In this document: positions 2,081 through 23,522 of the stretch, piece after piece
Layout of the letters: each line of letters starts with the position of its first letter
Numbering within the stretch: the first letter of the stretch is position 1
From: a virus
DNA length: 23,569 bases
Virus record (IMG/VR): IMGVR_UViG_3300036791_000271
Span: 1-23,569 of that record
Direction: 5' to 3' (one strand)
Program-made: the position numbers and the translations under genes
Notes under the pieces: generated by a model
What the model was told of the DNA's origin: nothing
Database searches by the model: none
Seen by the model: the letters and a program-made list of their open reading frames with translations, nothing else

Positions 2081-3034
2081 ATGACAATGGTACGTGGGCA
2101 GTTCTCTCAACTAATGGCTCCGGGATTGCATGATGAATTCGTGCATTGGCTTGACCTCCTGCAACGCGACGAGGAATATAGCCACGTCTTTCACGTCGAA
2201 GGATCGAAAATGGCGTATGAAGACGAAGCCGAGTTCGCCGGGCTACCGCCACTCATCGAGAAGCCGGAAGGCGAATCCATCTCTTACACAGATGCGATTC
2301 AAGGTGGTACAAAGCGGTATCTCCACCTGACCTACGGCCTCGGTGTCCGCTGCTCGTTCGAGCTGTACGAAGACGACCAGTATAACATCATCAACCAGGT
2401 TCCTCGTGCCCTAGCAAGGAGCGCACACTTTGTCAAAGAGCAACAGGCTTTCAACGTCTTTAACCTTGGATTTACTACGGTTACTACGACTGACGGTCTC
2501 TCCCTCTTCAACACTGCACACCCGCTTCTCGGCGGTCCTGCTGCTACTTCTATTGCCCCTGGTGTTGGTTCAATCATTACTGCTCCGGGTACGTACCCGA
2601 ACAGACCGACACCGGACATCGACCTAAGTTTCACTGGAATCCAGTTGATGGTAAACTTCTTCGAGAGGCTGCCTGACTCGCAAGGCCTCCCGGTTACCAT
2701 TAAGCCCAGAACTGTTATGATTCCACCTGAACTCAAGTGGATCGCTCGTGAGATCCTAGGTTCGCCTCATAAGCCGTACACGTCAGATAATGAAATCAAC
2801 GCTGTGCTAGCAGAGGACCTACAGTACTTCGTATGTCACTACCTGACTAGTGCGAGCGCTTGGTTCGTTATCGCTGACAAGATGGCTCACAGACTGAAGT
2901 TCTTCAACCGTCACGAGCTAGATGAGGACTTCGCGGACGACTTCGACACACGCTCTATCAAGCAAGTCAGCTTCATGCGCATCAGCACTGGAGCGACTGT
3001 ATGGGAAGGGACCTGGGGTTCGAACGGGCCGTAG
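2081..3034 (+). CDS. Major capsid protein, Mu gpT-like
   Basis: This 317-residue protein should form the capsid shell. The ATG at 2081 is preceded by GAGGTG at 2067-2072; a second ATG at 2087 is too far from that site. The layout matches the Mu-like major head subunit gpT family with the HK97 fold. In order it shows an N-terminal arm (GLHDEFVHWLDLL), then Y-G-L-G-V-R-C-S-F-E with an E-D-D pair, R-A-L-A-R-S-A-H-F-V-K-E-Q-Q-A-F-N, and the L-F-N-T-A-H-P-L loop near residue 145. Later it has K-P-R-T-V-M-I-P-P-E-L and the helix after it, S-D-N-E-I-N-A-V-L with L-Q-Y-F-V, and the C-terminal strand W-F-V-I-A-D. The length fits the family. It is flanked by decoration-like and zinc-ribbon genes. Confidence 0.78.
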   Translation: MTMVRGQFSQLMAPGLHDEFVHWLDLLQRDEEYSHVFHVEGSKMAYEDEAEFAGLPPLIEKPEGESISYTDAIQGGTKRYLHLTYGLGVRCSFELYEDDQYNIINQVPRALARSAHFVKEQQAFNVFNLGFTTVTTTDGLSLFNTAHPLLGGPAATSIAPGVGSIITAPGTYPNRPTPDIDLSFTGIQLMVNFFERLPDSQGLPVTIKPRTVMIPPELKWIAREILGSPHKPYTSDNEINAVLAEDLQYFVCHYLTSASAWFVIADKMAHRLKFFNRHELDEDFADDFDTRSIKQVSFMRISTGATVWEGTWGSNGP

Positions 3035-4113: not shown

Positions 4114-4431
4114 ATGCTGAAAGGCGTAGATCAAATGGCTGTAGGTTTCAAACAACAGCTCACAAATCTGTCCAGCGCCTGTGACCGCCGTTATCTGACC
4201 CTAGTTATGACCAAGATTATATCTCCTACTAGTGCTACTCTGGTTCCTCAGACTATGATTGACCAAGGTAGAGATGTATGGGACATTACAAATCCTATCT
4301 GGAGGCAGGTGGGAGATATAGCTCAAGTATTTGGTATCTACTGGGGTGGACAGGCGGTCGACAGCAACAACGGAACCGGCACCCCTACGCCTTCGTACTT
4401 CGCGGCTTCTTCTAAAGAAAAGAAGAGTTGA
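4114..4431 (+). CDS. Unknown small virion-region protein
   Basis: This 105-residue protein has a weak GAGG 5 bases before the ATG at 4114. It has a helical N-terminus (MLKGVDQMAVGFKQQLTNL), a central hydrophobic part with D-V-W-D-I-T-N-P-I-W-R-Q-V-G, and a polar, Lys-rich C-terminal tail (AASSKEKKS). No signal peptide or catalytic motif is seen. The stop lies 9 bases before the next gene, so it belongs to the same transcript. The function is unknown. Its position suggests a minor structural or assembly role. Confidence 0.5.
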   Translation: MLKGVDQMAVGFKQQLTNLSSACDRRYLTLVMTKIISPTSATLVPQTMIDQGRDVWDITNPIWRQVGDIAQVFGIYWGGQAVDSNNGTGTPTPSYFAASSKEKKS

Positions 4432-4440
4432 AGAGGGTCA

Positions 4441-5802
4441 ATGTCTCTATTCGGAATACCAAAGTTTGCGGTGCATTCTAACACTACTACCTCTGCACCC
4501 AATGCGACTGTCAACACAAGTCTCAACGACTTGGTCGTTTCGATGTGGGCAGGACAAAACTCTCCGACTGGTGTCACAGACACAATCGGGAATACGTACA
4601 TAGTAACTGGACTTCCAGCGCAGAACGGATTCGGTGCCTTTGAGTTTTTCGCGTACTGTTTATCGAGCATCGGAACAAATCCGTCAAACGTAGTCTCATG
4701 GGCTTTTGGAGCCGCTATTAGCGGTATAGTTTCTGTCTGGAGTGTCCCTAGCGGTGGAGCATCAGTAACGTTCGACGCGCAAGCGAAGCAAATCAGTAAC
4801 GGCGCAGCGAATCCGGCCGTCGTCGCCATGAACACCACTGGAAGCGACGAGATAGTATTCGTCGGAGTATGTAGTGTGACTACAGGAGTCGCTTACACTC
4901 CAGGAGGCGGATTCACACTTAGTAACAACGGTACGTTGGCTCCAGGTATAACAAGTCAGGCCACCGAATTTGGAACGTTCGCTTCTCCTCAAACAGGTAT
5001 CACGCCCGGATTCACAGCTCTCTCTAGCGATTATGCTATCATCGCTTGCGCTTTTAAGGCGTCGGGACTTGGACCAATCGCGAAGGTCTTTAGGATTGTA
5101 GACTTCTCCGCTGGTGTCAAAACAGTAACTTCTCCAGCGATCAGCGTACACACAGGAGATCTCGTCGTTGTTGGGACGTTTGGGCCTGGCGGACCAAGTC
5201 CACCGAACCTAGTACTCTCCGACACAATAGGTAACTCCTATACGCCGATATCACCGGATGGAGTAAATCCTGGAGCTGGTACTCACGCTACTCTTAACTA
5301 CGTCGTCAGTACTGGAACAAATGCGGCGAACGTAGTCTCGGCCACTTGGCTGACTGCTAATGCTATGGCTATCGTCGTCTTCGTCGTACCTCGTACACCG
5401 GGAGCAGTAGTCTCTCTTGATACCAGCGCATTCTTCGGTGGGCTTGCTGTCGCTAACGTTGCGACTTCGAGTTCCTATACTACGACCGGAGTTGACGATC
5501 TCGCATTTGTAGTCGCTGGTGTAGACTTGAGTAATACAGTCACCTTCACGGCTGGGACTAACTTCATACTCGATGGAAGCATCAACAATACTACTTCCAC
5601 TAGCGTTGGATTTGAGCATCAGGCTTACAGCTCTGCTCAGGCTGGTGTGACTGCGACGATCAATACGAGCACAGCTACTCCTCAAGTTGGTATGGCTGTA
5701 GGAGTCTTCAAGTCAGTTGGTGGAAGTATACCTGGATCAGGAGGGAAGGCTCCGTGGGTTTCACCATTGATTAACTCCTCTATTGAGAAAGGGAACGCTT
5801 GA
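4441..5802 (+). CDS. Two-repeat beta-sandwich protein, possible fibre or adhesin
   Basis: This 453-residue protein consists of two homologous units of about 214 residues (roughly 6-209 and 219-424) plus a short polar tail. Each unit has D-L-V-V-x near its start, then D-T-I-G-N-T/S-Y, N-V-V-S in the middle, and a closing strand of the type A-x-x-A-F-K. The composition is Val, Thr, Ser, Gly and Ala with almost no Lys or Glu, typical of beta-sandwich surface domains. The D-T-x-G-N-x-Y pattern recalls Ig-like or concanavalin-like modules in secreted bacterial and phage proteins. It probably decorates the head or forms part of a receptor-binding fibre. No signal peptide is present. Its stop overlaps the TTG start of the ATP-grasp gene by 4 bases (TTGA). 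Confidence 0.55.
   Translation: MSLFGIPKFAVHSNTTTSAPNATVNTSLNDLVVSMWAGQNSPTGVTDTIGNTYIVTGLPAQNGFGAFEFFAYCLSSIGTNPSNVVSWAFGAAISGIVSVWSVPSGGASVTFDAQAKQISNGAANPAVVAMNTTGSDEIVFVGVCSVTTGVAYTPGGGFTLSNNGTLAPGITSQATEFGTFASPQTGITPGFTALSSDYAIIACAFKASGLGPIAKVFRIVDFSAGVKTVTSPAISVHTGDLVVVGTFGPGGPSPPNLVLSDTIGNSYTPISPDGVNPGAGTHATLNYVVSTGTNAANVVSATWLTANAMAIVVFVVPRTPGAVVSLDTSAFFGGLAVANVATSSSYTTTGVDDLAFVVAGVDLSNTVTFTAGTNFILDGSINNTTSTSVGFEHQAYSSAQAGVTATINTSTATPQVGMAVGVFKSVGGSIPGSGGKAPWVSPLINSSIEKGNA
4672..4697 (+). repeat. Copy 1 of a 26-base direct repeat
   Basis: GGAACAAATCCGTCAAACGT and the next 6 bases recur at 5314-5339 with only 3 mismatches. The copies lie 642 bases (214 codons) apart in the same frame. 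They mark equivalent points in the two protein repeats and show that the duplication is still visible in DNA. Confidence 0.75.
5314..5339 (+). repeat. Copy 2 of a 26-base direct repeat
   Basis: This is the partner of 4672-4697: 23 of 26 bases match, in the same reading frame. It encodes the N-A-A-N-V-V-S segment of the second beta-sandwich unit. Confidence 0.75.
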
Positions 5803-7400
5803 AGAAAGTGGGCAAATTCCTCATACTAAGCGACAGCGGCCAAGGCCACGGACTTACGTTGCGTCTAAAGACTGAAGGTCACGAGGCGCAGCTGAAGGTC
5901 TTCGGTTCCGATTACGAAGGTCTGGGTCACGACATCGTCGACTGCGCGTGTGAGTATCTCACAGGAGAAACAGTCGTAGCCGACGGCGTTAGCTTCGGTC
6001 ATGTTTTGGAGAGCTTTCGCGATGCAGGTACGCGGATATTCGGGGGCGGAGTCTTCGCTGATAAACTAGAGACAGACCGCCTCTTAAGCGAGGAGGTGTT
6101 TCGAAACGCGGGCATAAAAACTCCTGATTCACATCGGGCCAATGACTGGGACGACGCAGAAAAAGTAGCGAAGAAATTCGCAAAACTAGGGGGTAAAGTG
6201 GTGCTCAAGCCAGAAGGGGGTTTGAGCGGCGTCGTCCCCTCTCTAGTAGTAGATGGAGAGGAGGAGGTCAAGGATGCAATAGATCACTTTCACCATTCGG
6301 CTGGGAACTCCGAAATTAACATCACCATTCAGGAATATATCAAGGGCGTAGCGGTTTCAACTGAGGGATGGTTCAACGGAGAAAACTGGATTCCTGGTAT
6401 GTTCAACCACACGATAGAGAAGAAGAAGTTCCTCAACTGTGACCTTGGACCTTCGACTGGATGTACCGGAAACCTCGTATGGGCTGCGGACGATGATGAC
6501 GATATTGTGACAGAAACGTTAACAAAGTTAACGGTTACGATGCGAAAGCATAATTACGTCGGGCCAATTGATGTCAACTGTGTTGTAAATGAGGAGGGTA
6601 TATATGCGCTCGAATTCACGCCGCGATTTGGATATGACGCTTTTCCAACTCTTCTTACTTGCCTTTGTGACTTTGATTTTGGTGCTTTCATCGACGATGT
6701 CGCAAGAGGAGATGAGCCGAAGGTTAAACTATCGCCTGGATACGGAGCTGGAATAAGGATAGGAATACCTCCTTGGCCATCAGATACTGAGCATGGAATT
6801 CCAGGCATCGCCCTTCGTGGTTTCAAGGAAGAGGACAAGAAATGGTTCTACCCTTACGAAATGCAGCTCGTAGACGGAGAGCTAAGAAGCTCGCGAGGCT
6901 ACGGACTCTTGGGCGTAGTCAACGGCCACGGCGGAACCCCAGGTGAGGCATTTGCTAGAGCTTACGAAATCTGCTCTCGCTTGCACGCAGTGGACTTACA
7001 ATATCGAACTGATCTGTATTGTGCTTGCATGAAGGATTTCAGGGACCTACGTAGTATATTTGACGGCTACACAGGTGGGTGGCTGGGGGTGGACCTTGAC
7101 GGCACTTTGGCTCATCATAACGGTTGGACTCGTTCTATTGGTGATCCTATCCCTGCTATGGTCAGCAGGGTCAAAAGATGGATTCGGGAGGGCAAAGAGA
7201 TTCGTGTCTTCACTGCGCGAGGGTCGATCGAAGGAGAAGGAGACACAGGTCGATACCAGCAGCTCTGCCGAATCTACGACTGGATCAACGAGCACATCGG
7301 AGAAGCCCTTGAAGTAACACACGAAAAAGATCCTGGAATGATCAGGTTGTATGACGACCGAGTAGTTGAGATAAATAAAAACGAAGGGACGATAGCCTGA
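5799..7400 (+). CDS. PurD-like ATP-grasp ligase fused to a HAD phosphatase-like domain
   Basis: This 533-residue protein starts with TTG at 5799, behind GAAAGGG, and overlaps the previous stop by 4 bases. Residues 1-415 follow the whole layout of phosphoribosylamine-glycine ligase (PurD). They include an N-terminal domain with S-G-Q-G-H-G-L-T, the ATP-grasp lysine at 137 (VVLKPEGG), Q-E-Y-I-K-G with Glu179, and D-L-G-P-S-T-G at 215-221. They also include L-E-F-T-P-R-F-G with Glu272 and Arg276, and a C-terminal domain with A-R-A-Y near 386-389. In PurD the glycine loop reads G-P-N-T-G-G-M-G; here it is G-P-S-T-G-C-T-G. Residues 427-525 are a HAD domain: V-D-L-D-G-T-L-A (Asp432, Asp434), F-T-A-R with Thr472, and Y-D-D-R (Asp519, Asp520). 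PurD joins glycine to phosphoribosylamine using ATP, and HAD enzymes usually remove phosphate. The real substrate here is unknown. The setting between virion genes is odd. Confidence 0.75.
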   Translation: MKKVGKFLILSDSGQGHGLTLRLKTEGHEAQLKVFGSDYEGLGHDIVDCACEYLTGETVVADGVSFGHVLESFRDAGTRIFGGGVFADKLETDRLLSEEVFRNAGIKTPDSHRANDWDDAEKVAKKFAKLGGKVVLKPEGGLSGVVPSLVVDGEEEVKDAIDHFHHSAGNSEINITIQEYIKGVAVSTEGWFNGENWIPGMFNHTIEKKKFLNCDLGPSTGCTGNLVWAADDDDDIVTETLTKLTVTMRKHNYVGPIDVNCVVNEEGIYALEFTPRFGYDAFPTLLTCLCDFDFGAFIDDVARGDEPKVKLSPGYGAGIRIGIPPWPSDTEHGIPGIALRGFKEEDKKWFYPYEMQLVDGELRSSRGYGLLGVVNGHGGTPGEAFARAYEICSRLHAVDLQYRTDLYCACMKDFRDLRSIFDGYTGGWLGVDLDGTLAHHNGWTRSIGDPIPAMVSRVKRWIREGKEIRVFTARGSIEGEGDTGRYQQLCRIYDWINEHIGEALEVTHEKDPGMIRLYDDRVVEINKNEGTIA

Positions 7401-8239
7401 TGCCGTTTCCACCGTCATTTGACCGCGCTTGGGATGTAACCCAGCCACTCGATTCTCAACTAGCGAATCTGCTCGGGCAAGACATTCGCAACCTTAAAGA
7501 CGATATAATGCAGCGTATCTCGCTGCTGAGCGGTGTGCTCGCCAACAGGCCAACGCCTGAAATGGTGAACGCGACTTGGGGAGGGGCTGGTTACGGTCTG
7601 TTATACTTCTCTACCGACAACAGTAAAGTCTATCAATGGTCCGGCGCCGCCTGGGTAGATATCACTTCGTCGATAGGAGGAGGTGGTGGTGGGATCACCT
7701 TACAGACTAACGGTGTGGCCAACGCCGTCCAGAACCTCCTCAACCTAATTGCTGGTACGGGAATCACACTAACGAACGTCGGTGGAGGCGTCACGATAGA
7801 TGCCGTTGGTGGTGGAGGAGTCCCGGTACAGCTTCACGGCAGAAAGAATCTAGTCGGACCTGTCGGAGTAGCAGGTCACTCGCTAGTACAAGTCGATAGT
7901 ATAACGGTCACCTTCCCCGGCGCAGGAGGTCCCTGGCGTGTTCTGGGTAGCTACCACTACTGGATGAATGGTGGAGTTGGATGGGAGTCCGGCATATTCG
8001 ACGGAGCCAACTGGTTCGCTCAAGGATGGGTGCAAGCACAGAATAACAACTCGATGCTCCAAGGTACTGACATGTCGGTAACCACCTATCTGAACGCTTC
8101 GGTTCACACCTTTGCGACTTACGTATATGGTGATGGAGCTGGTACTGTAGTGACATCCGCAGGCGGTATGGGTGACCCGGCACGTGTCACGGATATGGGA
8201 CCTAGTCATATGGATCTTTCGGTAATGGCGAGTAACTGA
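7400..8239 (+). CDS. Tail fibre-like protein
   Basis: This 279-residue protein has an ATG that overlaps the previous stop by 1 base (TGATG). Residues 1-45 form a helical stretch (PLDSQLANLLGQDIRNLKDD), as seen in the particle-binding end of phage fibres. Residues 48-90 carry N-R-P-T-P and L-Y-F-S-T-D-N-S-K-V-Y-Q-W-S-G-A-A-W, a common small beta module of fibre proteins. A poly-glycine linker follows, then a T-G-I-T-L-T-N-V-G-G-G-V-T-I-D unit typical of trimeric fibre shafts. The last 140 residues are beta-rich with many aromatics and glycines and are the likely receptor-facing head domain. It lies in a run of tail genes. The exact receptor is unknown. Confidence 0.65.
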   Translation: MPFPPSFDRAWDVTQPLDSQLANLLGQDIRNLKDDIMQRISLLSGVLANRPTPEMVNATWGGAGYGLLYFSTDNSKVYQWSGAAWVDITSSIGGGGGGITLQTNGVANAVQNLLNLIAGTGITLTNVGGGVTIDAVGGGGVPVQLHGRKNLVGPVGVAGHSLVQVDSITVTFPGAGGPWRVLGSYHYWMNGGVGWESGIFDGANWFAQGWVQAQNNNSMLQGTDMSVTTYLNASVHTFATYVYGDGAGTVVTSAGGMGDPARVTDMGPSHMDLSVMASN

Positions 8240-9831
8240 TGCCAGCCTTCCAAAATCGCGGACAACAAGCTCGCTCGGAAGAGCAGCAAGAATTTGCGAT
8301 GACTGGTCCCTTCGGTGGGATACAGAGTGAGCTACCTGCTACGCAAATTGAGACGCTAGGATTCTTTGACGCGAATAACATCATCTTCAGGAAGGGTACA
8401 GCGTCGCCGAGGCCTGGACTATCGATGCTGCCTCCACTAGTCCCACCTGAAGCTATCATGGGTATCTACCAATTCTATAATATAACCGGAGCTCTAGTTC
8501 AGGGCGTAATGACTCCTACACGGCTCTATAAGTTTGATGCAGGAGTTTACACCGAGATCACAGGTGTAGGACTACACGGAACTAACACAGAGCTTTACAG
8601 TTGGGATGTGGTGAATTACAAGCTCTGCTTCTCGCAGGGCGAGGACCCAGTCAATATATGGGACGGGATAACTCCTGGCTACACTGTAGTAGCAGGCTCT
8701 CCCGCTCATGTGAAGTATGTAGCCGAGGTCGGTTTGCATCTCATTGTTGTCAGTAAGGACTTTCCACTCAGATACTACTGGTCCGGAGTCGGGGACCCTA
8801 CGGATTGGACTGGGTTTACCTCTGGCCTGAATGACATCGTCGGCAATCTGGGACCGATTAACTTCGTTATAAAAGTTAATCAGTATGGCTTCGGTTTTCA
8901 CCAACTTGGTCTAACACAGATTGTCCCAACAGGTATTGGAACCAATCCGTTCGCGTTTAGCTCGGCTGCTAATGCTTCGATTGGGACTCTGTGTCCCTTC
9001 AGTGTACATCACATGGACGATCAGGGACGGGAGTTCTCCACGCACGTGGGAAAGGATAATGCCTATGCCTTCGATAGCTCGTCCGTCGAACCAGTCGGAG
9101 ACAATCCCATGTCGGATGGGACTAGGAGACGTATTGGTGCTCGCGCTCGTATTATGGGTGATTTGCTTCTATCTAATGCTGTGACAGTCAAGGGATACTG
9201 TACCTACGTAGTGAACGGACAGCCTTTCCGCTCGTATTGGATCAACATGCCTGACGTGGGTATGTGGGTCCTCAATTTCGATGAAGGTAACTGGACACGC
9301 TTTATCTACAACGGAACGGTCACTTGTATAGGCCCGTTTACAAACTTTCAGTCTGCTGTACGTATCATGGATCTCGTCGGCACGATTGCAGACCAAACTT
9401 GGAGTCCAGCTACACTCATTCAGCCGCTCACGCTCGATGGAATCCTACTAGGCTTCAAGGATGGTACATCAGGTTTCGCTACCTTCGGCGTAGCGTGTGA
9501 GCTGAGTTCGTCACTAACCTCCGGCAAGTTGATTTTCCAGGATCGACGTCACAGCCATACTGTAAAGAAGTTCCGCGTGTCCTTCGTAGACCAAGGACCA
9601 GTGACATTCACACTGAATCTGACCAACGAGCAAGGGCAGGCCGAAAGTCACGCATTCACTATCGGCTCAGGTGGAGGGGACGAACTGAACTACGTTCAGG
9701 AGTACAAGATGCCTGGCTTACGCATTCAGTATGTTCTTAGCATTCCTGCGAACACCTTCACGAGCGTATCCGAGCTTGCTCCAATGTTCGATGAAGGTGG
9801 GGAACAGCGTGGAGGTTTGATAGACAATTGA
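8239..9831 (+). CDS. P22 gp10-like DNA-stabilisation or tail hub protein
   Basis: This 530-residue protein has an ATG overlapping the previous stop by 1 base. After a short N-terminal tail, residues 30-270 show a series of beta-propeller-like blades. These include N-N-I-I-F-R-K-G with R-P-G-L, then T-R-L-Y-K-F-D-A-G, then L-C-F-S-Q-G with V-N-I-W-D-G. They continue with R-Y-Y-W-S-G-V-G-D-P-T-D-W, F-G-F-H-Q-L-G-L-T-Q-I and a G-T-L-C-P-F-S turn. This order, going from genome-position readouts to a sensor-like strand, resembles the packaged-DNA stabilisation protein family of P22 gp10. Those proteins close the portal channel and connect it to the tail needle. The C-terminal part forms a separate beta domain. 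A head-tail adaptor-like gene lies nearby. The match is by pattern, so a general tail hub protein is the alternative. Confidence 0.6.
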   Translation: MPAFQNRGQQARSEEQQEFAMTGPFGGIQSELPATQIETLGFFDANNIIFRKGTASPRPGLSMLPPLVPPEAIMGIYQFYNITGALVQGVMTPTRLYKFDAGVYTEITGVGLHGTNTELYSWDVVNYKLCFSQGEDPVNIWDGITPGYTVVAGSPAHVKYVAEVGLHLIVVSKDFPLRYYWSGVGDPTDWTGFTSGLNDIVGNLGPINFVIKVNQYGFGFHQLGLTQIVPTGIGTNPFAFSSAANASIGTLCPFSVHHMDDQGREFSTHVGKDNAYAFDSSSVEPVGDNPMSDGTRRRIGARARIMGDLLLSNAVTVKGYCTYVVNGQPFRSYWINMPDVGMWVLNFDEGNWTRFIYNGTVTCIGPFTNFQSAVRIMDLVGTIADQTWSPATLIQPLTLDGILLGFKDGTSGFATFGVACELSSSLTSGKLIFQDRRHSHTVKKFRVSFVDQGPVTFTLNLTNEQGQAESHAFTIGSGGGDELNYVQEYKMPGLRIQYVLSIPANTFTSVSELAPMFDEGGEQRGGLIDN

Positions 9832-12110
9832 AAGCTATAGCTAGCCTCGACTTCACGAAGATAGGTCCTACGCAGCAAGCTCTGTCGCTGTTTGCGAACA
9901 TGCTACGCAAGATTTATCAGAACTTGATCTTTATCGTAAATGGACATATAGGCTTCGGGGATGGGACAACTGCTGATAATATCGATGGAGTTTGGGTTAA
10001 CACAACGACTCCTGGTATAATCGCGAACTTTACCGTTACTCATAATTTGGGGAGGGTCCCCGTGGGATACATAGTTGTGAAAGAAGATGCACCTGCAACT
10101 CTATACGATGGAACCGTCGTAGCAACTAAGACTCAGATAACTTGGAGAGCGACTGGTGGAATCGCTCACATACGGGTTTTTGTCTTCGCACTACTTTTAT
10201 CGTTACTCGCATTTCGCAGCGTAGCTCAGACGACAGTTAACCTGAACGTTACTGGCACAGATGCTCAAGTATGGATGCATGGGACGTGGAAGGTTACCAT
10301 TAAGCAAGCTCAAGGAACTACTGGTGGACCTCCGTTCAGGATCATAAGTGGAGGAGGTTTTCTCAACGACCAAGCTGGAGCGCTAGATGGTTCAGGCAAT
10401 GCCACGATGAGCCTACCAGCGAACGCTAACATTGCTCCAGCGCAGAGCGTGTGGCAGTTTACGGTCTGTCCGGATGCGTCCTTTCCATGTTTCACACGGG
10501 AGATTACTATACCTATATCCTCGCCATTTGCGCTCAACATGACTCCTCCGCCGATCGTCGTGAATGTGTTGCTAGTTCCACTTCCTATAACGGCGTACAC
10601 AGATGGTGAGATATCAGGCGCTTCTAAAGGCACAATCTATTACAATACGACATCTAGCTTGTATCGTCAATGCAATGCAGCGTTTGCTGGAGTATGTTCT
10701 GCATGGGCTGGCTTCGGTGGAACAGCGGTGTGGAGTGCTATTACGGGGTTCCCAGCGGCTTGTACTCCGGGAACGTATGTTATCAATATACAGCTTGGAA
10801 CCTGTGCCCCAACTACTGGAAGTCCTGGGCTTCCACCCGGCTCTGTGCAGTATAACAACGCTGGGGCATTCGGAGGTACGGTTTTTCTCTTCAATCCGAC
10901 CGACGCTACACTAGGTATCTGCTCCGTGACCTGTGCCTCATTGACTAGTACAGTAGATACTGGTATCGGTCTTTTTTCTACCGACGCTGCGAGTACGATA
11001 GATATCGTTTCCAATCCTGATTCGATTCATGGAACAACAGTCACTAACATCTTCACTTCTGCTCAGACTGTAGATACTGAACAACTGGTTGGTACGAATT
11101 CTCAGGTCTACGCTGGTGGAAACAATACAGGAGGTGGATGCTTCACTCCTTCGCTTGGAGTAACTCCTACCTGTGCGAATGCTTATGCGTCGGTATTCGG
11201 TGACAATTCAGTTGATACTAACAATGGTCAGGATGCGGTCGGATTCCGCGCTCTTCCTGCGATGAGTAAGAGCGCAGGAAAGAATATGAACAGCATCGCA
11301 GGATTCTTGGTAATGACACCGGAATCAGCTGCTGGTGGCGGTTTCAGTCCTGTTCTCGAGACTTCTACGAACCTCTGGGGACTCGAGGTTCAGGATCTCC
11401 AGGGTCTCGGGACGACTCAAACAGTTGGAGTGCATATCGAGCCACAGACGAACGCTAGCGTTAATCACTATGCGATTAAAGTTGAGACGAATGGTGGACC
11501 TAGCACATTTCAGGGAATAACTGCCACGAACATAATTGACAGTGCTCTGACTGCTAGTAGATGCGTTCAGACTGGTGTGGGAGGTTTGCTCGGTGTCGCA
11601 GCCGGTGCGTGTGGTACAGGTACAGGAACAGTCGTTTCGTTCAGCGCTGGCGATTTCGGAGCAAGTGCTGCTGCGGTTTTCACGACAGCTGTATCGAGTC
11701 CTACGGTTAGTCCATCGCTCACGTTTACTGCGGTAAGTCACGGAGCGAACCAATTCTATGCCACACCAGACGGCTCTTCTGGCACTGCCGGGTTCCGTAC
11801 GCTAGTGTCCGGAGATTTGCCTTCGGCTGGTAAAGCGGGACTTTACACGAACTGGGCATCAACAACGACTGTCTGTTCGACGACGAACGTATCGGGAAAC
11901 ACTTGTACGACAACTGTTCCATTAAACGTCACAGAAGCGAACACAGCTTATAAAGCTTCATGCTCAGGCGTCGGCACGATTACTGGTTATCCGTTCATCA
12001 TAGGTATCGCGAAGGGAACTACCTCAATAACAGTAACGATTACGAATGGATCAGCGAGTGAGGCGGTAGTTTCTACGTGGTCTGAGGTTAATTGTGTAGT
12101 TACACGGTGA
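9828..12110 (+). CDS. Large composite tail fibre protein
   Basis: This 760-residue protein starts with TTG overlapping the previous stop (TTGA). GGAGG at 9811-9815 is 12 bases upstream. Residues 1-117 look like a complete small phage virion protein: a helix near 17-35, an I-G-F-G-D-G-T beta turn, the strand pair F-T-V-T-H-N-L-G-R-V-P-V-G-Y, and a closing I-R-V-F-V-F. Residues 115-134 read like a secretion leader, with Arg, a hydrophobic run ALLLSLLAF and A-Q-T. The rest is a long, Thr/Ser/Gly-rich fibre with repeated modules, about twenty cysteines and a compact C-terminal domain (about 690-760). It probably carries receptor-binding activity. The composite build suggests that two genes have been joined in frame. 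Confidence 0.65.
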   Translation: MKAIASLDFTKIGPTQQALSLFANMLRKIYQNLIFIVNGHIGFGDGTTADNIDGVWVNTTTPGIIANFTVTHNLGRVPVGYIVVKEDAPATLYDGTVVATKTQITWRATGGIAHIRVFVFALLLSLLAFRSVAQTTVNLNVTGTDAQVWMHGTWKVTIKQAQGTTGGPPFRIISGGGFLNDQAGALDGSGNATMSLPANANIAPAQSVWQFTVCPDASFPCFTREITIPISSPFALNMTPPPIVVNVLLVPLPITAYTDGEISGASKGTIYYNTTSSLYRQCNAAFAGVCSAWAGFGGTAVWSAITGFPAACTPGTYVINIQLGTCAPTTGSPGLPPGSVQYNNAGAFGGTVFLFNPTDATLGICSVTCASLTSTVDTGIGLFSTDAASTIDIVSNPDSIHGTTVTNIFTSAQTVDTEQLVGTNSQVYAGGNNTGGGCFTPSLGVTPTCANAYASVFGDNSVDTNNGQDAVGFRALPAMSKSAGKNMNSIAGFLVMTPESAAGGGFSPVLETSTNLWGLEVQDLQGLGTTQTVGVHIEPQTNASVNHYAIKVETNGGPSTFQGITATNIIDSALTASRCVQTGVGGLLGVAAGACGTGTGTVVSFSAGDFGASAAAVFTTAVSSPTVSPSLTFTAVSHGANQFYATPDGSSGTAGFRTLVSGDLPSAGKAGLYTNWASTTTVCSTTNVSGNTCTTTVPLNVTEANTAYKASCSGVGTITGYPFIIGIAKGTTSITVTITNGSASEAVVSTWSEVNCVVTR

Positions 12111-19302: not shown

Positions 19303-19317
19303 AGCGTAGCTAGGCTC
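19302..19317. repeat. Palindrome spanning the convergent stop codons
   Basis: The 16 bases GAGCGTAGCTAGGCTC read nearly the same on both strands, with one mismatched G pair. The plus-strand TAG at 19300-19302 and the minus-strand stop at 19310-19312 lie in or against it. There is no loop, so it is not a normal terminator. It may be chance or a protein-binding site. Confidence 0.3.
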
Positions 19318-19657
19318 CCTCTGCCGCGATCTCTGGACTGTCTTCGTGTAGGATCGCCAGTACTTCGTTGTAGCCAATGCAGCGGAGTACTGGCGTATCA
19401 TCGAACTTCAGTAGATATCCCGCAAACTGAGAGTATAGGATTTTGTCTCCTACCTTGATGTCTGTGATGTCGTCCGCGATGCCAACGACTCTACCCTTCG
19501 TGGGCAACGCTTTCGCTCTCTCAGGAATAACAATCTTACCAGTGTACCTGAAGTTGTCGATTGAGATCATCAGATGACCGTTTAGAACTTTCTTGAATGG
19601 CCACTTGATTCCCGGTTCTACTATATTATCGAGCGTTTGAGCTAGTTGTTCATCCAT
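19310..19657 (-). CDS. GroES-like co-chaperonin
   Basis: This 115-residue protein starts at the ATG at 19657, behind AAAGGAG at 19663-19669 (minus strand). Residues 27-103 match the GroES fold. They include a first strand and mobile loop (MISIDNFRYTGKIVIP) with the hydrophobic I-V-I step that would touch GroEL. Then come K-G-R-V-V-G-I, K-V-G-D-K-I-L-Y-S-Q-F-A-G, and the C-terminal strand G-Y-N-E-V-L-A-I-L. The loop is shorter than in GroES, and about 25 residues precede the fold. GroES caps GroEL and helps fold proteins; T4 gp31 does this for the T4 capsid. The last gene of the replication operon, it starts 10 bases after the helicase stop. Its ribosome binding site overlaps that stop. Confidence 0.75.
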   Translation of the reverse strand: MDEQLAQTLDNIVEPGIKWPFKKVLNGHLMISIDNFRYTGKIVIPERAKALPTKGRVVGIADDITDIKVGDKILYSQFAGYLLKFDDTPVLRCIGYNEVLAILHEDSPEIAAEGA

Positions 19658-19667
19658 AACTTCTCCT

Positions 19668-20846
19668 TTACTTTACGAAGTAGAGAGTCTGTCCGCCTAT
19701 GACCTGGCGTTCGCCTAAGGTCCCAGCTTCTCTGAAAGTTGCTATGATAATGTCCAATTCCCCAGATGTCATATGCTTCCAGTTCCTTGCTAAGATATCC
19801 TTCCGGGATGCATAACCTTTCGTTTCAATGAACTTGAGTACTTTGTCCGAAGCGGACGCAAGTGAACTCTCGCCTACGGCTCGAAACACAATCTTCAGGT
19901 CCGCAACAACATCCTCGATCTTGTGCGTAGCCATCATAAAGTCTAGTTCATTTATCTCTAGCTTATCGCTCCTTGCTGCGCTAATTACCTGAGCTAATTT
20001 GGAAGCGTTGGCCCACTTGGAGGTTTTGTAGACGCAAGTCGCTTCATCATCAAACTCGTTTGGCTCGCAGCTATTATAGTAGCGCTCGAAGAGCTTTCGA
20101 GCGCCTGGAGTAAATGTAAATTCACCTCGTAGACAACTAATGCTACGGAGGTCTTCGATGAGGTCATCTGTGCCAGCGATATAAGCCGTAGGCCAAGGAA
20201 CCTTCTTATCCTTCTTGGTAGCGAGAACGAAGTTAACACGACGAGTAAAGCCACCACCGACAGCGTCAGCAGGAATAGACTTGACAAGCCATTCTTGAGC
20301 GCTACCACCGAAAAGCGAAATGCATGGAGAGTTGATATTCCATTCACCTTTTCCTCTAGTTCCATATTGGTAAACTCCCTCCTTGGAGTCCCACAAATCT
20401 GATAAAGCAGTGATGCTGAATTGCGATGCCGTTATAAATACGGACAGCTCTGTAGACACTAGCAAAGCTGCACTTTCGATACCGAGTTTTATAGAGGGTT
20501 GACCATTCGAGCTGGGATGAACTCTCGGAAAGCCTTTACTCAACTTCTCCAAAACATACTCCATTGTAATACGATCAGACAAGACGTTAACGGTCCCGGC
20601 TGCCTTCATAAGGCTTAGTGCCGGGTTCATCGCCGCACCTTTTCCCAGACCTGGTCGTCCTACCAGAACTACGTAGAGGTTTGGGTATAGTTTCCAGAGT
20701 GTTCGGTCGATCCAAACGTTCCGCTTGAGGGTTGCAGCGATGGCGAGGGCTGCACTCCACCAATGATACTTTGTTGGACTTTCCGTTGCGTCTGTAACAT
20801 ACTGTATGTACTCGCTAATGAAATCTCGTTTAAGTCGGCGGGACAC
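19668..20846 (-). CDS. DUF3987-like P-loop ATPase, probable replicative helicase
   Basis: This 392-residue protein starts with GTG at 20846, with AGGGG 8 bases upstream. No other start codon suits the conserved N-terminus, since the next in-frame Met is residue 73. The N-terminus (FISEYIQYVTDATESPTKYH) is the lead-in common to the DUF3987 phage primase-helicase family. Residues 63-70 are a Walker A loop, G-R-P-G-L-G-K-G. A Walker B-like strand (ALLVSTEL, Glu133) follows. The middle has F-G-G-S-A-Q-E-W-L and G-G-G-F-T-R-R-V-N-F, where the arginines are candidates for an arginine finger. Residues about 335-392 look like a winged-helix domain. It would unwind or load at the replication fork beside the polymerase, and no primase domain is seen. 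Its first 59 codons lie inside the polymerase gene in another frame. Confidence 0.65.
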   Translation of the reverse strand: MSRRLKRDFISEYIQYVTDATESPTKYHWWSAALAIAATLKRNVWIDRTLWKLYPNLYVVLVGRPGLGKGAAMNPALSLMKAAGTVNVLSDRITMEYVLEKLSKGFPRVHPSSNGQPSIKLGIESAALLVSTELSVFITASQFSITALSDLWDSKEGVYQYGTRGKGEWNINSPCISLFGGSAQEWLVKSIPADAVGGGFTRRVNFVLATKKDKKVPWPTAYIAGTDDLIEDLRSISCLRGEFTFTPGARKLFERYYNSCEPNEFDDEATCVYKTSKWANASKLAQVISAARSDKLEINELDFMMATHKIEDVVADLKIVFRAVGESSLASASDKVLKFIETKGYASRKDILARNWKHMTSGELDIIIATFREAGTLGERQVIGGQTLYFVK

Positions 20847-23350
20847 TTCTTCAACCCCTGGATTGAATAACCGATCTTGAAATCAACTGGTATCTTCACT
20901 TCAAACCCACTCACCGGAAACCTCAAAACCCTATCATAAGCCTTCTGCATCAGTCTGAGCGTACTGAGCAAAGACTCAAAATCATCTTTACACTCACATA
21001 ACACTGAGTCGTGACCGTCCATTAGGACGAGTCCCGGAGACTGAGTGTGTAAATAGAGAATGGCAAGACCGTTGTTGTCTCCCACTGTTGACTGGGGGAT
21101 ATAAGCGTAGCCCTCACGAAAGATTTTACCATTATCTCCATAAGGTCTGAGTCCATGAAATACTCTTTCCCTACCGAGAGGCGTAGACAAGAACTTCTTG
21201 TTACAAAGCTCATGCTGTATGTATTTGTGAAATACACCGCGAACCGCTGGCTCGACCTTGTGAAACTTATCGAGAACCGCAGCACAGAAGTCCACTTTAA
21301 TAGTGCGACCCTCTTTAGCGAACTCGGTGGCCATTTTGTCTTCGTGCATATCATAATTCCCTGCGTGTCTTACTTTCTTCCCAAGGTAGTATTCTAGACA
21401 CTCCTTGTTGTTTGTTCTCTCTATGGGTAGCCCGAAGATTTGCGATGCTAGGACTGCGTGCCTTGAGACGCCGGTCGAAATACTTCGATTAAGCTCTTCA
21501 ATTCCTTTTCTATCTCCACTAACGTCGGCGATGATTCCTTGAACGATCCACTCCTCTGCCGAAGCTTGATCGCAATAAGCGAATATAGTATTAGGTCTAG
21601 CAATGAATATTCCTTGGAATTTTTCTCCGAGATCTGAGTGTTTAGGCTGATTCTGTCCGTTGCTTCCAAATCCGAGAAAGTTTTGGCGAGAAGCTCGACG
21701 GCCAGTAACAGTTCCGGTGACCGAGTAACAGGAATGGAACACCCCATTGTTAAGTCTGGCATTGACATAAGTTCCGAGAACTTTATTGAGTTCACGTACC
21801 CTGAGGATGTCCTTAAGAACAGGATCGCCTTTAGTTGCGAAGGCTTCGTTGAGTGATTCTTCTCCAGTTGATTCATTGAATTCCCCTTTCTGATTTTTGA
21901 CCATCTTTAGTTTAATCTTCAAATCCTTCTTTAGAACTTCCTTCAGCTGTGGTACCGACGATAGATTAAGAATCGCTTCAGGGCCGCAGCCGAGTTGCTT
22001 CGCAAGCGCATCTCCCATTTGTCTGGAGTATACGATAGGTCGATTGTGAAGGTTTCCTGATATCGAGACACACTTCTTATTAAGTTCGTCAATAATCTCT
22101 TCGCGGAGTCGGGGGAGAGCTTCAGCGTCTGTGAGGATTCCCCGTTTGTCGATGGAGTGAAAGCTTCGAGCGAGTGGCATTTCGTATTCGTCGTAGAAGC
22201 GTTTGAGGCTTGGATTGTCAGCGAACTCCGTTTCTTGTTCTTCCCATACTTCGTAGGTGCTACAGGCGTCGAGGCAGTTGTACCTTTTGAGTTTCGGGAG
22301 GCCTTCACGGAGTGTCCATCCTTTTCCCTCGTCTTTGAAGTACGGAAGTCGAGTGTATTGCATCACTTGAAAATCCAGTTTGTGACTGAGTTCGGGGTGT
22401 AATACATGATGTCGTACCAGAGTATCGTCAACAAGGTCCACGCCAGGAGGTAGACCAATAACCTCAATCCAGTTTGCATCAAACGTCGTCCAATTTTGGC
22501 CAATGCCTCGGTGTCCGCGGAGGTTTTCCGTAAGAAGCCTCCACGTTCGCGCGAGATTACGAGGGTCGCCTTCAAATAAGCTAATGCTGAGTGCGCTACG
22601 TCGAGAACAAGATAGACTAATACAAATAGGAACCCGGCGAGCAATAAGCTCAATATCACGCGAAGTGGGATTTGTAGAAGCATTGCACTCACGGACGTAG
22701 TCCTCGATTTCTCCCTGTGAAGGATTCGCTATCAGCTCTCTTTCTTCCAAGGGTTTGTGAATTCCGGTGTTTCTCCAGAAATCATATTCTTCTCTAAATT
22801 TAGAGAAAATGAAAACGACAGTATCACGGTCTGACCACTCTCGCAATACATAGGCGGGGTGAAAGTTGGGGAAACATATATGCGGCCATCCCAGTTCCGG
22901 AGATACAAGTATACTTCCTCTCCATTTGGAGATTTTACTTTCGTGGTCTTTAGCATCGATTGTAGCTGGGCACAGAATTGAGAGAGGAGTTCCTCCGAGA
23001 GGGATAATAAAGCTGGGTCGATAGAATCGAAGCTCTTCGAAGAACTGAGCAATACACAGGTCGACGGATATTCCGGTTTCAGCGAACCTTGATATATCAT
23101 TATCTGGTGGCCTCACTTTATATGGATTTGTAAAACAACACTTAGACGGAGAAATTCCTGCCGCGATTAACATTCGGTCTAGTTCTCGCCCCGAGGCGCC
23201 GACGAATGGAACTCCCACCTGATCCTCATCGGCGCCCGGAGCTTCTCCGACAAGCCAGATAGGGGCTTGCGGATCTCCTCGGAACCCTACGTACTTACGT
23301 CCTAGCTTGCTACACAGAGCTTTTAGTTCGTCAGTCTTCGGACCTATCAT
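20669..23350 (-). CDS. DNA polymerase I with uracil-DNA glycosylase and exonuclease domains
   Basis: This 893-residue protein starts at the ATG at 23350, with GGAG at 23358-23361 seven bases upstream. A TTG at 23383 is possible but has a poor site. Residues 30-165 are a family 4-like uracil-DNA glycosylase with G-E-A-P-G (35-39), P-F-V-G-A-S-G and H-P-A (His164). Residues 230-370 are a 3'-5' exonuclease with D-I-E (Asp232, Glu234), F-D-A-N-W (Asp291) and Y-N-C-L-D-A (Asp361). The family A polymerase follows. It has T-G-R-R-A-S near 548, motif A C-D-Q-A-S-A-E-E-W (Asp594), motif B K-K-V-R-H-A-G-N-Y with His662 and Tyr666, and motif C G-H-D-S-V-L (His780, Asp781). The family usually ends near V-D-F-K-I-G-Y (about 829), but this frame runs 64 residues further, into the helicase gene. 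It replicates the phage genome and may check for uracil. Confidence 0.85.
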   Translation of the reverse strand: MIGPKTDELKALCSKLGRKYVGFRGDPQAPIWLVGEAPGADEDQVGVPFVGASGRELDRMLIAAGISPSKCCFTNPYKVRPPDNDISRFAETGISVDLCIAQFFEELRFYRPSFIIPLGGTPLSILCPATIDAKDHESKISKWRGSILVSPELGWPHICFPNFHPAYVLREWSDRDTVVFIFSKFREEYDFWRNTGIHKPLEERELIANPSQGEIEDYVRECNASTNPTSRDIELIARRVPICISLSCSRRSALSISLFEGDPRNLARTWRLLTENLRGHRGIGQNWTTFDANWIEVIGLPPGVDLVDDTLVRHHVLHPELSHKLDFQVMQYTRLPYFKDEGKGWTLREGLPKLKRYNCLDACSTYEVWEEQETEFADNPSLKRFYDEYEMPLARSFHSIDKRGILTDAEALPRLREEIIDELNKKCVSISGNLHNRPIVYSRQMGDALAKQLGCGPEAILNLSSVPQLKEVLKKDLKIKLKMVKNQKGEFNESTGEESLNEAFATKGDPVLKDILRVRELNKVLGTYVNARLNNGVFHSCYSVTGTVTGRRASRQNFLGFGSNGQNQPKHSDLGEKFQGIFIARPNTIFAYCDQASAEEWIVQGIIADVSGDRKGIEELNRSISTGVSRHAVLASQIFGLPIERTNNKECLEYYLGKKVRHAGNYDMHEDKMATEFAKEGRTIKVDFCAAVLDKFHKVEPAVRGVFHKYIQHELCNKKFLSTPLGRERVFHGLRPYGDNGKIFREGYAYIPQSTVGDNNGLAILYLHTQSPGLVLMDGHDSVLCECKDDFESLLSTLRLMQKAYDRVLRFPVSGFEVKIPVDFKIGYSIQGLKKCPADLNEISLASTYSMLQTQRKVQQSIIGGVQPSPSLQPSSGTFGSTEHSGNYTQTST

Positions 23351-23522
23351 GTGGACACTCCACAGCTCCCAGAATGGACTCAATCCAGTGCTGCTCCATC
23401 ATTCGTTTTGTGAGTCCTTTTACCTGAGGTGCGAGCCAGCCATACACGTCGTCGAATTTCCAGCCACGAGCTTGCATTTCTTCGAGAAATCTGTCTTTGT
23501 TTAGTGTATGTTTAGTCTTCAT
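23331..23522 (-). CDS. Small unknown protein upstream of the polymerase
   Basis: This 63-residue protein starts at the ATG at 23522, which overlaps the stop of the preceding gene by 11 bases, so translation is probably coupled. A longer frame opening with GTG at 23558 would run through that gene. The sequence is helical and charged (LNKDRFLEEMQARGWKFDD), followed by V-Y-G-W-L-A-P-Q-V-K-G-L-T-K-R, and it ends with a polar tail. It overlaps the polymerase start by 20 bases. No membrane segment or known motif is seen. Position suggests a small replication accessory protein, but this is a guess. Confidence 0.55.
   Translation of the reverse strand: MKTKHTLNKDRFLEEMQARGWKFDDVYGWLAPQVKGLTKRMMEQHWIESILGAVECPHDRSED

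Follow-up and report, generated by a model that had tools for sequence, protein, structure and literature searches.

The 23,569-nucleotide stretch analysed here (the window: positions 1 to 23,569 of IMG/VR virus record IMGVR_UViG_3300036791_000271) encodes, within its late gene block, a 533-residue PurD-like ATP-grasp ligase fused to a C-terminal HAD phosphatase domain (Table 1). The similarity to PurD, the glycinamide ribonucleotide (GAR) synthetase, is not due to chance: Pfam GARS_A matches the protein with E=1e-11, TIGR00877 purD matches residues 69-406 with E=4e-19, and PurD chains in the PDB match with E-values down to 2e-14. An AlphaFold2 model built from a 52-member alignment (predicted local distance difference test score 90; predicted template modelling score 0.91) reproduces the four-domain GARS fold, and the 15 closest PDB folds retrieved with this model in Foldseek are all PurD/GARS (TM score up to 0.80 of target). 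This structural comparison bears out the original prediction, drawn from the window's sequence alone, that the GARS domains of a PurD-like ATP-grasp enzyme can be traced over 415 residues.

As that prediction had also suspected, the ligase is nonetheless very unlikely to be an ordinary PurD, judging from its score and from residue exchanges that are fixed across 74 viral proteins. It reaches 68.7 bits against an equivalog cut-off of 288 for TIGR00877, a model that all 52 members of the alignment match. Nor does it keep the purine-gene company of PurD. The absence of any other purine gene, first remarked on for the window, extends to 42 related records, in which there was no PurF match over the cut-off and no PurN match (controls positive). 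Partial matches to the PurF profile, covering positions 55-204 only, occur in records L164 and L180 (G039:C1:24942-25322 and G041:C1:2929-3309); these probably represent a class-II glutamine amidotransferase domain rather than PurF.

The residues behind this distinction were compared in an alignment of 74 viral relatives and 43 cellular PurDs. E91, K137, G183, K209, G217, G221, G255, E272, R276, G278, R403 and D405 are invariant in both sets, and include the K137, K209, E272 and R276 expected of the ATP-grasp superfamily. Within the viral family, E91, R94, K137, E207, K209, D258, N260, E272, T274, R276, R403 and D405 do not vary. The original prediction had listed Lys137, Glu179, Glu272 and Arg276 as ATP-binding, and had named the loss of such residues as grounds against it. 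K137, E272 and R276 are kept throughout the viral alignment, but Glu179 did not stand as a conserved residue, being glutamate in only 47 of the 74 proteins; the invariant or near-invariant positions nearby are Q178 and G183.

In A. aeolicus PurD, glycine is bound by D212, R287 and E292, and ATP by K103, K143, E185, E192 and K214 (PMC8880213). When these sites are mapped onto the window ligase via HMMER alignments, D212 corresponds to E207 and R287 to R276, and E292 is lost. D212, E292 and N285 (A. aeolicus numbering) are kept in 43 of 43 PurDs; in contrast, all 74 viral proteins have E207 and T274 in place of D212 and N285, with A, L or S where PurD has E292. Fixed or near-fixed exchanges (viral/PurD) comprise R94/K, Q178/E, W191-F192/other, E207/D, C or E222/G, D258/Y or F, N260/G, T274/N, Y or W279/D and A or L281/E, so that the viral site has gained D258 and N260 and the GDPE of PurD has become GYDA or GWPL; K103 is replaced by arginine. 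In PurD, we take it, N285 is a ligand of the second metal and the GREHA and GPNTGGMG loops serve phosphoribosylamine. Neither loop survives in the viral ligases: the REH of the N-terminal GGREHA loop (positions 14-18) is lost, and GPNTGGMG (positions 217-224) is changed to GPxxGCxG or GVATGEQG, the window itself having GPSTGCTG, as previously read. By alignment, the PurD residues that bind glycine, phosphoribosylamine and the second metal thus appear exchanged in a fixed manner across the viral clade. The comparison therefore suggests that the machinery for ATP binding and carboxylate activation has been kept, while the amine- and sugar-recognising parts have been changed alike clade-wide, and its diagnostic residues allow a true PurD to be told from a member of this clade.

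The clade is virus-only. When IMG/VR was scanned with the window protein by itself, no relatives came up; the family was opened by aligning it with a 443-residue homologue from the INPHARED phage ct2os315 (MW202796), which is 30% identical, lacks the HAD domain and lies in a late block. The gene for this homologue (L001:19992-21323; MW202796.1, about 42140-43471) is without annotation in the public record. Further scans, alignment-based and homologue-based, returned 49, 124 and 319 related viral contigs in partly overlapping sets. The clade is present on more than 400 IMG/VR contigs, its carriers being hundreds of uncultured soil and freshwater phages, and its members form 80 clusters at 90% identity, or 89 clusters at 85% in a wider set that includes later loci. 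Among cellular genomes, the viral ligase profile matches only three small contigs of metagenome-assembled genomes, at about 416-540 bits, and reaches no more than 144 bits on the PurDs of 120 whole genomes from two phyla. Two of the three contigs are phage contigs by gene content, with terminase and portal genes adjoining the ligase, and the third (L291) has a tail-spike-like gene and a holin-like gene near it.

A quick maximum-likelihood tree sets PurD apart from the viral clade across one branch, which has an SH-aLRT (approximate likelihood ratio test) support of 100. When IMG/VR was scanned for authentic PurD, five of the matches were true PurDs of full length, one was partial and six belonged to the viral clade. 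The viral-ligase and PurD profiles separate these matches by hundreds of bits; the ratio of five true PurDs to more than 400 viral-clade contigs is indicative and not a census, the scans having used different short peptide patterns. BFVD holds no full-length counterpart of the ligase (best TM score 0.54 of target), and the parts of the ligase scanned against PHROG matched no PurD-like family, save for a partial, weak match to phrog_29784.

Ratios of nonsynonymous to synonymous substitution rates lie mostly at 0.03-0.14 (30 non-overlapping pairs, one misaligned pair aside), which shows the ligase to be under strong purifying selection. With the major capsid protein as an unbiased probe for relatives, the ligase was present in 15 of 17 capsid-selected records of 37 kb or more, and missing from L228 and L231. 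The gene is therefore near-core in this phage group and not sporadic cargo. The capsid protein is 90-91% identical to its counterparts in L008 and L009, and the ligase only 57-66%, so that the ligase evolves far faster than the capsid.

The HAD domain, which makes up the final 107 residues and matches phrog_1238 and phrog_415, is predicted to be an intact phosphatase. D432, D434, T472, K510, D519 and D520, which provide the DxD(GT), Thr, Lys and DD motifs (I-IV), are invariant across 31 copies, in line with the key Asp and Thr residues recognised at the outset. Orphan HADs of phages in the same two PHROGs (Rhizobium phages, BcepSauron and Tunturi_5) are 40-44% identical and carry the same motifs, but they stand alone or lie at the start of other large proteins, whereas here the domain is C-terminal to a ligase. 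In Tunturiibacter phage Tunturi_5, gp273 (L002:2941-6312) is a very large protein, annotated as MutT/NUDIX, whose N-terminus is formed by the same HAD domain; its gene adjoins a minor head protein gene.

The search for the same fusion in other phages found it within the window's branch (51-66% identity) and not in the other branches. Even within the window's branch, the ligases of L076 and L096 are without a HAD domain though 60-62% identical to the window protein, and L076 falls among HAD-bearing members in the tree. Because the fusion is limited to one branch, so that the majority of relatives have no HAD domain, and is sometimes lost, the ligase is the core and the HAD domain is not essential. 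The HAD domain as an essential half, and with it the earlier emphasis on the fusion as the essence of the gene, was accordingly rejected.

Table 1. Features of the window, and members in related records of a protein family that recurs beside the ligase
Feature	Position	Strand	Details
Major capsid protein	2081..3034	+	Pfam PF25209 E=3e-9; phrog_371
Degenerate M15-type endolysin relative	4114..4431	+	BLASTP E=1e-10 to the M15 endolysin of L009; 37% identity to that of L070
Upstream gene	4441..5802	+	453 aa; 4-nt overlap with ligase start; no significant family match
PurD-like ATP-grasp ligase fused to HAD phosphatase	5799..7400	+	533 aa; TTG start; profile matches, AlphaFold2 model, Foldseek
GARS/PurD-type four-domain ligase part	5799..7043	+	Residues 1-415
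HAD phosphatase domain	7077..7397	+	Residues 427-533; motifs D432xD434, T472, K510, D519-D520
Fibre-like gene	7400..8239	+	279 aa; 1-nt overlap with ligase end
Virion structural protein	8239..9831	+	phrog_3287, E=4e-21
IPHxxQRYxTVGDW family	L136:11272-11664		
IPHxxQRYxTVGDW family	L249:14512-14907		
IPHxxQRYxTVGDW family	L251:4098-4490		
IPHxxQRYxTVGDW family	L255:11287-11691		
IPHxxQRYxTVGDW family	L258:4775-5161		
IPHxxQRYxTVGDW family	L264:7381-7752		

The overlaps listed in Table 1 confirm the stop-start coupling of the ligase to both of its neighbours. The labels originally given to those neighbours, a beta-sandwich protein upstream and a fibre downstream, are plausible, but neither has a significant Pfam or PHROG match; the family of the downstream gene comes after the ligase in 15 of the 80 clusters. 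Likewise, the placement of the gene in a virion block holds in so far as the block is late and contains virion genes, but a position beside lysis genes (endolysin or holin) describes the relatives better than a purely virion one.

The ligase is co-directional with virion genes in all clusters. Among the 44 genes directly upstream that were tested against Pfam, ten matched M15_4, four Tlde1, two lysozyme, at least one M15_3 and one a 3TM holin, and the PHROG labels of directly upstream genes are mostly endolysins. By eye, more of these genes resemble LAS peptidases (H...D...HxH; L060, L061, L075, L087 and L096) and others resemble 'NRNPGNLE' muramidases, in both cases with weak or no profile support. 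A spanin-like gene lies directly upstream in L137. Several non-homologous endolysin families fill the same slot before the ligase. By chance, an endolysin would be expected directly upstream of a random gene in about 1 of 60 cases (at about 60 genes per phage); the clusters are related, and no p-value is claimed. In the ct2os315 lineage the order is a large internal protein, the ligase, a small fibre-like gene, a GH24 lysozyme, a holin-like gene and a spanin-like gene, the last three falling two to five genes downstream of the ligase. A third lineage has the ligase between terminase and portal, with a lysozyme upstream in L122 and L123.

A 125-135-residue protein family (IPHxxQRYxTVGDW...HExxE) with a zincin-like motif also recurs directly before or after the ligase (Table 1); two members scanned singly gave no PHROG match.

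The recurring lysis neighbours raise the possibility of a role in lysis. The protein is very probably an active ATP-dependent ligase with a substrate other than that of PurD. Late in infection it would use ATP to convert a carboxylate into an acyl phosphate and then join the acyl group to an amine; R276 and E207 suggest that the carboxylate is amino-acid-like. Since the gene recurrently adjoins endolysin, holin or spanin genes, whichever the type of endolysin, the most likely setting would be the cell envelope at the lysis stage, where the acceptor might, for instance, be the amine of an amino sugar or peptide in peptidoglycan or its precursors. In the window's branch, the fused and catalytically intact-looking HAD domain probably strips phosphate from the substrate or product, a step with which other branches dispense. 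The statement in full, that the ligase belongs to a virus-only ATP-grasp clade of PurD descent with a changed substrate and an envelope role at lysis, is put forward tentatively, as something only a little short of probable. Taken by itself, an envelope or peptidoglycan-type acceptor is possible, if slightly less so. That a near-core enzyme ligating a carboxylate to a cell-envelope amine constitutes a hitherto undescribed phage lysis step beyond holin, endolysin and spanin is a more doubtful proposition.

Some points weigh against a lysis role. In the window, the neighbour resembling an endolysin is separated from the ligase by one gene and is degenerate: its product, which has no Pfam or PHROG match, is without the catalytic His/Asp motif, whereas close relatives keep an intact M15-type endolysin directly before the ligase. 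The terminase-portal lineage is mostly without an adjoining endolysin, so that the link to lysis genes is not universal. L231 keeps an M15 endolysin but has no ligase, and the two genes are therefore separable. Finally, the link may reflect late expression only.

The position of the gene among co-directional structural genes, with overlaps of 1-4 nt, a fibre-like gene directly downstream in the window's branch and the ct2os315 lineage, and the terminase-portal slot in the third, would also suit an enzyme that modifies a capsid, fibre or ejection protein as virions are assembled, by attaching an amino acid or a comparable group. The original prediction had suggested such virion modification, and the joining of an amino acid to a phosphorylated sugar, as possible roles. 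There is, however, no constant structural partner, since the structural neighbours on both sides vary between lineages; enzymes of the PurD type work on small molecules, and all four domains of the PurD fold are retained in the model; and RimK/TTL-like protein ligases are only distant matches. A virion-modifying ligase, and a virion protein as the acceptor, are thus unlikely, though still to be taken seriously.

ATP-grasp ligases commonly form dipeptides and small amides, and the lysis neighbours and residue exchanges on which the envelope reading rests would also fit a ligase whose product, a small peptide or inhibitor, targets the host by a block of cell-wall synthesis or by superinfection exclusion, with no polymer being modified. 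No export or resistance gene is constantly beside the ligase, and this alternative seems improbable.

Less probable again is an enzyme of nucleotide or DNA modification, which might place an amino acid on a modified base or its precursor while the HAD domain acts on a nucleotide phosphate. The relatives of the HAD domain do look like the phosphatase portion of polynucleotide kinases (phrog_415), and one branch has a DpdA-like transglycosylase gene near the ligase. Yet that gene occurs in 13 of 42 records, all of one branch and not the window's, and was rejected as a partner, and the ligase is placed with late genes and not with early genes of DNA metabolism. The DpdA-like (tRNA-guanine transglycosylase-like) gene lies at L097:12629-13405 on the minus strand and in 12 other records of the L084-L100 branch, whose phages may have 7-deazaguanine DNA modification.

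Least probable of all is a PurD, ordinary or a little diverged, that would raise host purine synthesis as an auxiliary metabolic gene: PurD is the closest characterised family in sequence and fold, and viral 'GART/purD' genes have been reported as such (PMC11360552, PMC11097641), but the reading was rejected on the scores, the fixed residue differences, the separate clade and the late context without purine genes, authentic PurD being found on only five IMG/VR contigs, with opposite scoring on the two models.

Those genes were reported by ocean and snow virus surveys, in which they were likewise annotated by PurD similarity in viral contigs and read as purine metabolism (PMC11360552, PMC11097641). 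If some of them belong to the present clade, they would have been wrongly counted as auxiliary metabolic genes of purine metabolism. The proteins share with PurD (TIGR00877, PF01071 and PF02843; PDB 2YW2, 1VKZ and 1GSO) the four-domain fold, the residues E91, K137/K209, E272 and R276, and R403/D405 of the C-domain, and similarity searches would call members of this widespread and conserved clade, missing from PHROGs and BFVD, PurD. Literature searches found no description of a PurD-like or lysis-linked ATP-grasp protein in phages, and the ligase is probably an unrecognised phage enzyme open to misnaming as a purine gene. The cassette of LUZ24-like phages (ATP-grasp, amidoligase, glutamine amidotransferase and GGCT) also includes a phage-encoded ATP-grasp of undefined substrate, but that protein is short (about 290 residues) and belongs to an early module with amidoligase and GGCT genes, whereas the window ligase is late (PMC3890496). 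Ten window proteins scanned against Pfam gave no amidoligase or GGCT match, the genes of relatives having been scanned in part. The constant late position of the ligase and its recurring endolysin neighbours of unrelated families pose a testable question, namely what phages ligate just before lysis.

Elsewhere in the window, no tRNA or Rfam features were found. The minus-strand region 19310-23383 includes genes for a GroES-like protein, a DUF3987 protein and a DNA polymerase I to which a family-4 uracil-DNA glycosylase-like domain is fused. On the plus strand, 9828-12110 encodes a collar-like N-terminus of 115 residues that leads directly into a hydrophobic stretch resembling a signal peptide and a beta-rich protein of secreted appearance; the collar-like and secreted-looking parts are separate genes in L231 (13688-15965 and 18629-20949). 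Several late genes of these phages look exported, for example an FN3-like protein of L231 with a signal peptide and a C-terminal transmembrane segment.

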